From: an uncultured Myxococcales bacterium
GTDB taxonomy: Bacteria; Myxococcota_A; UBA9042
DNA length: 64,000 nt
Direction: 5' to 3'
Assembly: GCA_903842345.1 (NCBI GenBank)
Contig: CAIMLR010000028.1
Coordinates: 62,001 to 126,000, forward strand
Shown: positions 6,684 through 16,031 of the stretch, piece by piece
Numbering within the stretch: the stretch's first letter is position 1
Layout of the letters: the number at the start of each line of letters is the position of its first letter
Notes under the pieces: generated by a model
The model's input: only the letters and a program-made list of their open reading frames with translations
Told to the model about the DNA's origin: nothing
Databases searched by the model: none
Translations under genes and position numbers: made by a program

Positions 6684-6798
6684 GGCGTTTGGCGAATCGC
6701 TGAAAAAGTCGCTGGTGACGCGGGGTAATTGCTTGCATTGGCTCGCCCGTGCGGTAGCTTCGCGCGGGTTTCATCTTGGCCTGCCTGAGGAGGATCGT

Positions 6799-7521
6799 AT
6801 GCAGAAGCGTGCTTGGATTGGGGTGCTCGCGGTCGTCGCGCTGCTTGGGCACGTTGCCTGTGGCAGCACGGCGGGTAGCGGCGGTGGCGGGGCGGTCGTT
6901 GCCCACGACGCGGCGACTTCAGGAGACAGCGCAACGACGGATGCGGCGGACAATGCTGCGGCAGACGCGGTTGCGGCCGAGGACATCCAGCCGGACATCG
7001 CGCTCGATGCCGCGCCGGACGTGAAGCAGCCGGTCAAGACGGTCGGGGCGCTGGTCAATCCGCCGCTGGACGCGCCGCTCTTCACCAAGGTGGTTGATTC
7101 GACCGCCGCCAAGGTAACGCCCGACGCGTTGCAGGGGCACTGGACGGTGCTGTGGTTCTACCCGGCTGCATCGACAGCAGGTTGAACGATCGAGGGTTGC
7201 GGGTTCCGCGACCTCCAAAGCGAGTTTGATGCGATTGGCGTGACCATCATCGGCGTGTCTTTTGATTCTCCAACCAAGAATGCTGCGTTCAAGAAGGCCG
7301 ACAATTTTGCCTTTGCCCTGTGGAGCGACGTCGGTCGCGAGCTGGCGCTGTATTACGGCGCGGCGTCGAGCAAGACGCAAGGCGCGGCGGACCGCGTGAC
7401 CGTGGTGCTGGACGACACGGGCACGCAGGTGCTGACCTACTCGGCCTTCATGACGAATTCCGGCCTGACGCACCATCCCAAGGATGTGCTGGCGGACTGC
7501 AAGGCGCTGTTGGGCTTGTAG
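6799..7521 (+). CDS. Selenocysteine-containing peroxiredoxin lipoprotein (Bcp/PrxQ type), TGA 7183-7185 read as Sec
   Basis: Read through the in-frame TGA, this is one 240-residue protein. ATG 6799 follows GAGGAGG by six bases. Residues 1-20 look like a lipoprotein signal ending HVAC-G; a low-complexity Ala/Asp/Thr linker runs to about residue 80; the rest is an AhpC/TSA fold. The segment FYPAASTAG-(TGA)-TIEGCGFRDL matches the Bcp/PrxQ peroxidatic site FYP.A.TPGCT.EAC.FRDL, with TGA (codon 129) exactly at the peroxidatic Cys and the resolving Cys kept at +5 (C134). The frame stays intact for 112 codons after it (GVSFDSP, FALWSD). A SECIS-like hairpin begins seven bases after the TGA. It should reduce peroxides outside the cytoplasm. 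The alternative is a nonsense mutation or sequencing error at precisely the catalytic codon. Confidence 0.88.
7183..7215 (+). promoter_or_regulatory. In-frame UGA (Sec codon) with bacterial SECIS-like hairpin
   Basis: TGA is at 7183-7185. Downstream, GAGG (7192-7195) pairs with CCTC (7212-7215), G7196 is bulged, and TTGCGG (7197-7202) pairs with CCGCGA (7206-7211) with one U-G pair, leaving the loop GTT (7203-7205). The loop opens with G, 18 bases after the TGA, with ten base pairs in the stem. These values agree with what is known of bacterial SECIS elements (short distance from the UGA, a G among the first loop bases). The hairpin lies over conserved codons for EGCGFRDL, so part of the pairing could reflect coding constraint. 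Confidence 0.72.
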
Positions 7522-7539: not shown

Positions 7540-8433
7540 CTACTGGCAGATGGGCGCCGCGCGCACGGCTGCTTCCAGCTGCTCAATCCGCTTGGCCTGC
7601 TCGCGCAACTGCCGCTGCTGCACCTGCAGCGCCGCGACGGACATCGAGAGGTAGCCGTACAGGTCGACCATGTCGCGCCGCGCGTCCACCGCCGGGCTGT
7701 CGGGCTGGTCGTCAATGATGAAGCCGAGCTGCTGCGGCGCCTGCGGTCCGGCATCCCGGTACTTGTAGGTCGCCAGCTTGGTCGCCAACAATTCCGCCTG
7801 CAGTTGCGCGGCGTCGTCGGCGTCCAGGTAGCGGATGTCCGTCTTCCGGGACCGCCGCGAGATCGGGCAGCCAGCGGCCTTGGGATCCTTGTCGGTGCAT
7901 TTCAGGTGCTGCTGGCAATCGTTGTGCAAATCGCACTCCGCGCCCGCCGTGGTGCACGCTTGACCGGCGACCTGCGCGGCCGTGCACACGCTCATGCCCG
8001 TGGGCGTGGGCTGCACGCTGCCACAGACCGGCGCGCCGCACGTTGCGAACCACTTGGTGGCCGTCGCCTGACAGGAGCCGCCCTTGCTCATCACGACGCC
8101 CGCGGCGTTGGCCTCGCAGCCGTTGCCGTAGTCCTTGCCGTCACAGCCGCAAATCGGCCCGTATTCCAGCGTGCAGACCTGCGGCCTGACCGCGCACGAG
8201 CCTTGGCCGGTGCATTGGCCGACCGGCGCGGTGCAGTACTTGCCGCTGCCGCAGACGTCCGTGCCGACGGTGCAACTCGTTGCCACATCGCCGGCGATCG
8301 CGTCGGTGCCGCTGATCTGGCCATCGTCGCCGCTGCCGGTGTCCGCCGTGACGCCGTCGCCGCCGCTATCCAGCCAGCAGCCGCTGAGTCCGAGGGTAGA
8401 GAGGCTGAGGAGTGTGAGAAAGAAAGCGCGCAT
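7540..8433 (-). CDS. Lipoprotein with Kazal-like module and C-terminal peptidase S74 (intramolecular chaperone) domain
   Basis: The 297-residue protein begins with a lipoprotein signal (LGLSGC, Cys19) and an Asp/Gly-rich linker. Residues about 87-121 form a Kazal-like Cys pattern (YGPICGCDGKDYGNGC). More Cys pairs follow to residue 190. The C-terminal 100 residues contain KTDIRYLDADDAAQLQ, YKYRD, LGFIIDDQPDSPAVD and VDLYGYLSMSVAALQ. These resemble the S74/ICA autoprocessing chaperone domain of phage tail spikes, which also occurs on bacterial surface proteins. A helical coil (residues 265-290) ends the protein. It is convergent with the selenoperoxiredoxin gene (18-base gap). Function unknown; probably a trimeric or self-assembling surface protein. 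Confidence 0.82.
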   Translation of the reverse strand: MRAFFLTLLSLSTLGLSGCWLDSGGDGVTADTGSGDDGQISGTDAIAGDVATSCTVGTDVCGSGKYCTAPVGQCTGQGSCAVRPQVCTLEYGPICGCDGKDYGNGCEANAAGVVMSKGGSCQATATKWFATCGAPVCGSVQPTPTGMSVCTAAQVAGQACTTAGAECDLHNDCQQHLKCTDKDPKAAGCPISRRSRKTDIRYLDADDAAQLQAELLATKLATYKYRDAGPQAPQQLGFIIDDQPDSPAVDARRDMVDLYGYLSMSVAALQVQQRQLREQAKRIEQLEAAVRAAPICQ

Positions 8434-15506: not shown

Positions 15507-16031
15507 TCAACGCGTCGCGGTTGGCAGCGCCAGCAATTCCTGCAGCCGCGGGCGCATCTGTGCGACGGCGCCTTCGCCTTTGACCGACCCCTGCATCCCG
15601 CGGCCATTGCCCTTGCCGTCCGCGCCGGGCAAGGCGATGAGCGGAATCATCTCCGAGCGGTAGCCATCCGCGGCGAGGCGATCGCGATCGCGATCGAGGT
15701 CGAACTCCAGCAGGCGCAGGTCGCTGAACGCGTCATCCAATTCGCCCGCCTTGGCGGCATCGTGGAATCGGCGGCACGGCTCACACCAGGTTGCGCCGAC
15801 ATAGACGAGCAGTCGCCGTCCGTCCGCCTGGGCGCGCGCCAGCTCCGCCTGCACGTACGGCGCAATCGGGCCGTCGGGCAGGGCGCTCACCACCTCGATA
15901 TGCCGCTTGCCTGGCGTCACGTCCGGCGCGGGCGCGAGGACCGCAATCGGCTTGGTTGGCTGGGCCACAACCGGCGGCGCCGCCTCGCGTTGGCACGCCG
16001 CCAACCACACCACTGCGAGCATTCTGCGCAT
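15507..16031 (-). CDS. Thioredoxin-fold lipoprotein
   Basis: The 174-residue protein starts with a short lipoprotein signal (VVWLAAC, Cys13) and a Pro/Ala linker. A thioredoxin domain follows with the active site WCEPC (Trp82, Cys83, Cys86), then the family's cis-Pro region (EMIPLIALPGADG). ATG 16031 has GGAGG upstream; longer in-frame starts run through unrelated antisense sequence. It would act in the periplasm on disulfides. It is one of three extracytoplasmic thiol/selenol redox-fold lipoproteins in the window (with the peroxiredoxin at 6799 and the rhodanese at 37439), and so is a conceivable reductant for the peroxiredoxin; that link is speculation. Confidence 0.87.
   Translation of the reverse strand: MRRMLAVVWLAACQREAAPPVVAQPTKPIAVLAPAPDVTPGKRHIEVVSALPDGPIAPYVQAELARAQADGRRLLVYVGATWCEPCRRFHDAAKAGELDDAFSDLRLLEFDLDRDRDRLAADGYRSEMIPLIALPGADGKGNGRGMQGSVKGEGAVAQMRPRLQELLALPTATR

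Follow-up and report, generated by a model that had tools for sequence, protein, structure and literature searches.

A predicted exported selenocysteine peroxiredoxin of the PrxQ/Bcp type and its relatives in Myxococcota

In the catalytic cycle of PrxQ peroxiredoxins, the peroxidatic residue reacts with the peroxide first, and a Cys five positions downstream (+5) acts in resolution. A selenocysteine (Sec) peroxiredoxin was reportedly first described in Eubacterium acidaminophilum. The periplasmic selenoproteins include E. coli FdnG and the [NiFeSe] hydrogenase of Desulfovibrio. Sec peroxiredoxins of COG1225 (Bcp), which possess the motif TxxU, constitute an established family (PMC9312934, PMC13188914), and three Sec peroxiredoxins are encoded by Anaeromyxobacter dehalogenans (PMC1794560). 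The published selenoproteins of extracytoplasmic families comprise outer-membrane MtrB/PioB-type (GSU2204), ABC substrate-binding, SaoB/SaoX and DsbA-like proteins (PMC13188914).

The gene described here is located at positions 6799-7521 (+) of the window, the whole 64,000-nucleotide stretch of DNA that was analysed. It almost certainly encodes one complete enzyme that destroys peroxides with selenium at its active site, is exported and is tethered to the envelope. The favoured reading, to which we assign a probability of roughly 0.86 on the basis of sequence comparison, is a Sec peroxidase of the PrxQ/Bcp type that would be exported, would most likely carry a lipid at Cys21 and would be held at the envelope by a flexible linker.

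Gene layout, homologues and export signal

The gene runs from ATG at 6799 to TAG at 7519-7521 in one frame, and its sole interruption is TGA at 7183-7185 (codon 129). If this codon is decoded as Sec, as the homologues with the same codon suggest, the product has 240 residues. The sequence-only reading, in which two adjacent frames were joined into one coding frame split by TGA, is thereby confirmed. A ribosome-binding-site-like GAGGAGG can be read from the sequence closely upstream of ATG (6785-6792). The encoded protein begins with a signal peptide and lipobox (6799-6861; MQKRAWIGVLAVVALLGHVA followed by Cys at codon 21). Then comes an Ala/Asp/Gly-rich low-complexity linker (6862-7065), which is predicted to be disordered by AlphaFold2 pLDDT and has comparable counterparts in the homologues. 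The remainder, residues ~90-240 (7066-7518), is an AhpC-TSA domain. A Kazal-domain lipoprotein gene at 7540-8433 (-) is convergent with the peroxiredoxin gene.

Across 22 genomes from the order, we found 14 homologues; each has exactly one stop, which is TGA and always at the same codon. With dozens of further homologues in the phylum that keep this TGA, the recurrence is far in excess of chance. The phylum search covered 379 genomes, mostly MAGs, and listed about 90 further or repeated TGA-bearing matches. The phylogenetic tree was based on the peroxiredoxin domain, and 76 Sec and 36 Cys sequences were read. In this tree, the window protein falls within a 59-member clade (support 100/99), comprising 56 Sec and three Cys proteins, all N-terminally extended and separate from cytosolic Sec-PrxQ and Cys-PrxQ. 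At least 56 Sec homologues across Myxococcota, all belonging to this clade, keep TGA at the codon in question. The other side of the tree contains cytosolic Sec and Cys proteins, which start ~43 residues before the active site, together with a small number of Cys lipoproteins. Because sampling used a profile built on the exported family, cytosolic forms are not represented in their true proportion. Cytosolic Sec peroxiredoxins occur in other Myxococcota (L177, L179, L180, L191, L195-L198, L200-L203, L205-L207, L209, L211, L213, L214 and L216), and at +5 these proteins often carry His, Gln, Arg, Lys, Ser or Asn instead of Cys.

The alternation of Cys and Sec at codon 129, which had been suggested as a check, does occur. 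Two proteins, L161 (genome G083) and L162 (G181), carry TGC and are nested inside the exported Sec clade, and Cys paralogues are found elsewhere in the tree. The nesting indicates that a change from Sec to Cys took place there, and it is likely that both genes are such conversions. The TAG-containing matches in genomes G377, G346, G166 and G353 were considered as possible UAG-encoded Sec forms and rejected, as their active-site codon is Cys and the TAG falls where the sequence ends or past that point. The homologue L045, flagged for TGA and TAA, was also rejected as a Sec form and reads as a Cys form.

The lipobox of the window protein is G-H-V-A-C21, where His at position -3 fails the strict lipobox pattern. 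The same His is present in L020. In L019, the closest relative, Leu takes this position and the sequence agrees with the strict pattern. All 12 members of the order that were aligned have C21. In the exported clade, 40 of the 56 Sec proteins passed a lipobox scan (strict or relaxed), and about ten more were accepted by eye, which is a judgement. Two Sec members (L172 and L217) possess a signal peptide without the lipobox Cys, and four further ones have unclear starts. A lipoprotein or other export signal followed by a linker is present in nearly all of the 59 members. Considering the lipobox counts, the invariant C21 and the His/Leu variation at -3, it is near certain, as far as sequences can tell, that the window protein is exported, and lipidation is likely. 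The lipoprotein signal and linker proposed in the sequence-only reading are supported by their conservation in the clade and by the close homologues, although the strict pattern fails in the window protein itself. It is improbable that the mature Sec peroxiredoxin is unlipidated, being either soluble in the periplasm or anchored in the inner membrane. Such a form would be in line with His at -3 and with the signal peptides of L172 and L217, but is hard to reconcile with the invariant C21, with the lipobox of L019 and with a linker tether straight after the Cys, an arrangement typical of lipoproteins. A lipidated protein is thus preferred; the membrane carrying it and the face exposed can be proposed only as predictions.

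Peroxiredoxin domain and active site

With C placed at residue 129, the Pfam AhpC-TSA model matches residues 92-209 (84 bits, E 1.1e-23), which means that the domain spans TGA. In an alignment with structurally characterised PrxQ/Bcp sequences, the TGA coincides exactly with their peroxidatic Cys, as had been supposed from the motif. The active site contains P122-x-x-x-T126-x-x-U129 (PxxxTxxU....C), where T126-A-G-U129 corresponds to the T-x-x-U of COG1225 Sec peroxiredoxins. The full peroxidatic set of P122, T126, U129 and R199 is conserved in the alignment of the order members. The +5 Cys, which the sequence-only reading had described as intact, is the putative resolving residue C134, and it occupies the position that defines the alpha type of PrxQ/Bcp, five residues after the peroxidatic one. 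Among the exported Sec members, the +5 residue is Cys in 52 of 56, Arg in three and Leu in one.

In the AlphaFold2 model, residues 1-90 have a pLDDT of about 37-59, and the majority of residues 91-240 exceed 90. The best PDB match of the model is PrxQ of Xanthomonas campestris (5iiz; E 2.2e-13, TM-score 0.80 by target length), and the predicted fold of the window protein is that of PrxQ.

In the same family, three exported proteins of genus g10 (L029, L040 and L041) form a branch where Arg replaces the +5 Cys, which makes them one-Sec forms. Their linker is much shorter, 50 residues from the lipobox Cys to Sec. The Arg of this branch shows that a thiol-resolved cycle is not universal in the clade. 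It also leaves some room for the idea that Sec129 is real and the exported protein functions mainly as something other than a peroxidase, for example, as a redox protein of the thiol-disulfide or methionine-sulfoxide type or as a ligand of a metal or metalloid. Peroxidase activity is so far a prediction, which favours this idea too. However, all four peroxidatic residues are conserved and the predicted fold is that of PrxQ, and we give a non-peroxidase function only a small chance. The peroxidase reading is retained, with peroxides as the presumed substrate.

Decoding of the in-frame TGA

A hairpin follows TGA at 7194-7214 (+), with 7194-7202 paired with 7206-7214 and an apical loop GUU at 7203-7205. 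The published bSECIS model requires a loop of 3-9 nt with G in the first two positions, a stem of 4-16 bp, a distance of 16-37 nt from UGA and an energy of at most -7.5 kcal/mol (PMC13188914). The hairpin agrees with this model, having a 3-nt loop that starts with G and then U, a stem of 9 bp, a spacing of 17 nt from TGA and an energy of -14.2 kcal/mol for the hairpin alone. The energy itself is unexceptional compared with shuffles (z -0.87; 35 of 200 shuffles fold equally well), so covariation and codon freezing carry the case for a SECIS element.

Among 40 Sec sequences, base pairing is seen in 97.5% of the cells, and both-sided changes occur at two pairs, one changing from G-C to U-A or A-U and the other from G-C to C-G or A-U. 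The covariation score is above those of all 500 shuffles, and all five measures are at or near the shuffle limit. In the 13 Cys homologues, 62.5% of the cells are paired and no covariation was detected. Individual sequences illustrate the compensation: a Gly to Glu change in L071 is matched by a silent TTC to TTT change on the pairing side, L068 has U-A in place of a G-C pair, and the closing pair is reversed in L179 and L180. In the exported Sec genes, Gly at +4 is encoded by GGT in 54 of 54 cases and Gly at +6 by GGG in 55 of 55, the background frequencies in the same genes being 11% and 16%, respectively; the sequences are interrelated, and a binomial probability can therefore serve as a guide only. 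Eight pairs of relatives show dS of 0-0.38 over codons +1 to +10, five of the values being exactly 0, and about 0.5-1.6 elsewhere. On either side of TGA, dN/dS between pairs of relatives is about 0.1-0.3, which indicates purifying selection up to the true stop. The frozen silent sites after TGA and the low dN/dS on both sides point to selection both on the protein, whose chain extends beyond TGA, and on an RNA element directly after this codon. From this comparison, the hairpin is conserved for base pairing and not merely for protein sequence. The earlier suggestions of a SECIS-like hairpin and of family sequence continuing beyond TGA have therefore held, the former through comparative evidence.

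The hairpin has no match in Rfam even at E up to 1. A SECIS model of the family, run over the genome containing the window, retrieved the window site only (68 bits; the next hit has 15.6 bits and E 6.7). This model is too family-specific for the absence of further matches to mean much.

The window's genome is 5.85 Mb in size, and its closest named relatives are freshwater Myxococcales MAGs. The proposed search for selA, selB, selD and tRNA-Sec found all four. A tRNA-Sec with the UCA anticodon scores 70.6 bits, SelB is full-length (662 aa, 289.7 bits), and SelA and SelD reach 475 and 372 bits, all above the cut-offs, the one for the tRNA being curated. The Sec-decoding trait is, by these matches, complete. 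SelA occurs in every one of the 22 order genomes, whether or not they have the Sec peroxiredoxin gene, so co-occurrence with the machinery does not discriminate. Two genomes of the same genus, G003 and G004, lack a Sec peroxiredoxin, have a formate dehydrogenase without TGA and retain SelA. Some genomes of the genus being devoid of the gene and possessing SelA, the gene and the machinery do not track each other. The main formate dehydrogenase alpha subunit (G000:C39:68135-70135 in the window's genome) is a Cys form in the window's genus, and its gene contains one TGA in several of the family's other genera. Considering the Cys form in the genus, the window's genome may encode few selenoproteins besides the window peroxiredoxin. 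The GPx of this genome was tried as a Sec protein and rejected.

The frame would be open whichever residue was inserted, which would permit decoding of UGA without the Sec machinery, through near-cognate readthrough with Trp or Cys or through a reassigned code. This is very improbable, since TGA serves as a normal terminator in family members (e.g., L023), tRNA-Sec(UCA) is present, and the frozen, covarying hairpin is explained only by SECIS-directed insertion. A true stop or a sequencing error in a decayed or mis-assembled gene, for which nothing speaks except the stop codon itself, has a negligible probability, given that dozens of independent assemblies share this TGA and that strong purifying selection acts downstream of it.

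Proposed function and relation to known systems

It seems that the Sec peroxidase would be made and work as follows. SelB and Sec-tRNA(UCA) would bind the hairpin after UGA, so that Sec129 is inserted and no stop occurs. The chain would leave the cytoplasm via the Sec pathway and undergo lipoprotein processing. Once exported, the enzyme would reduce peroxides through the Sec129 selenolate, which P122, T126 and R199 would activate, and the resulting selenenic acid would probably be resolved by Cys134 with the formation of an Se-S bond. A thioredoxin-like protein of the envelope, supplied by a transporter of the DsbD/CcdA type, might reduce this bond. The genome encodes two DsbD_TM-type proteins, which are candidates for the reductant supply only. 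A small predicted lipoprotein with a thioredoxin-like domain and the motif WCEPC (MRRMLAVVWLAAC) is encoded in the window at 15507-16031 (-), 8.5 kb from the peroxiredoxin gene. It is a possible reductant, as a candidate only. No conserved neighbour gene pointing to the reductant was found across ten loci.

The placement of a selenoenzyme outside the cytoplasm had been regarded as unusual. This is true in part: exported selenoproteins have already been published (PMC13188914), and no description of an exported or lipoprotein Sec peroxiredoxin was found in the open-licence literature, the localisation of the three A. dehalogenans proteins being outside the comparison. A paper devoted by name to selenoproteins in Myxococcota was not found in that literature either. 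What is new is the phylum-wide exported clade; the Sec peroxiredoxin active site and exported selenoproteins as such are already known. The clade has many members, and these come from numerous families of a single phylum, which makes it more than a peculiarity of an individual genome. Every member would be divided at TGA by a standard gene caller, leaving an orphan fragment next to a truncated lipoprotein; this is an annotation gap. More tentatively, and at slightly less than even odds, the clade can be seen as an old, phylum-wide Myxococcota family of envelope-tethered selenoperoxidases guarding the envelope against peroxides and including a one-Sec Arg(+5) branch recycled differently. If so, this class of surface selenoenzymes has been left unrecognised because gene callers split its genes at TGA.

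The bacterial SECIS element, which is unusually well conserved and shows real covariation, is useful for testing recognition by SelB. The clade also offers a natural comparison, within one exported fold, of Sec with Cys (56 and 3 members, respectively) and of two-residue with one-residue recycling, beyond the reach of the cytoplasmic thioredoxin system.

The window protein shares with the COG1225 Sec peroxiredoxins the peroxidatic Sec, the motif PxxxTxxU, the AhpC-TSA domain and a bacterial SECIS right after UGA, but differs from them by its predicted N-terminal lipoprotein signal and its linker and by its position in a distinct exported clade. The Cys PrxQ/Bcp proteins, represented by the X. 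campestris enzyme, have the same fold, catalytic residues and +5 Cys of the alpha type, whereas the window protein has Sec for the peroxidatic Cys and, in addition, the export signal and linker. PrxU (NCBIfam NF040737) is a Sec/Cys peroxiredoxin of the same superfamily, but the window protein scores 24.7 bits against its model, below the curated cut-off of 270. The known extracytoplasmic selenoproteins are likewise Sec proteins working outside the cytoplasm, but belong to unrelated families and are not peroxiredoxins.
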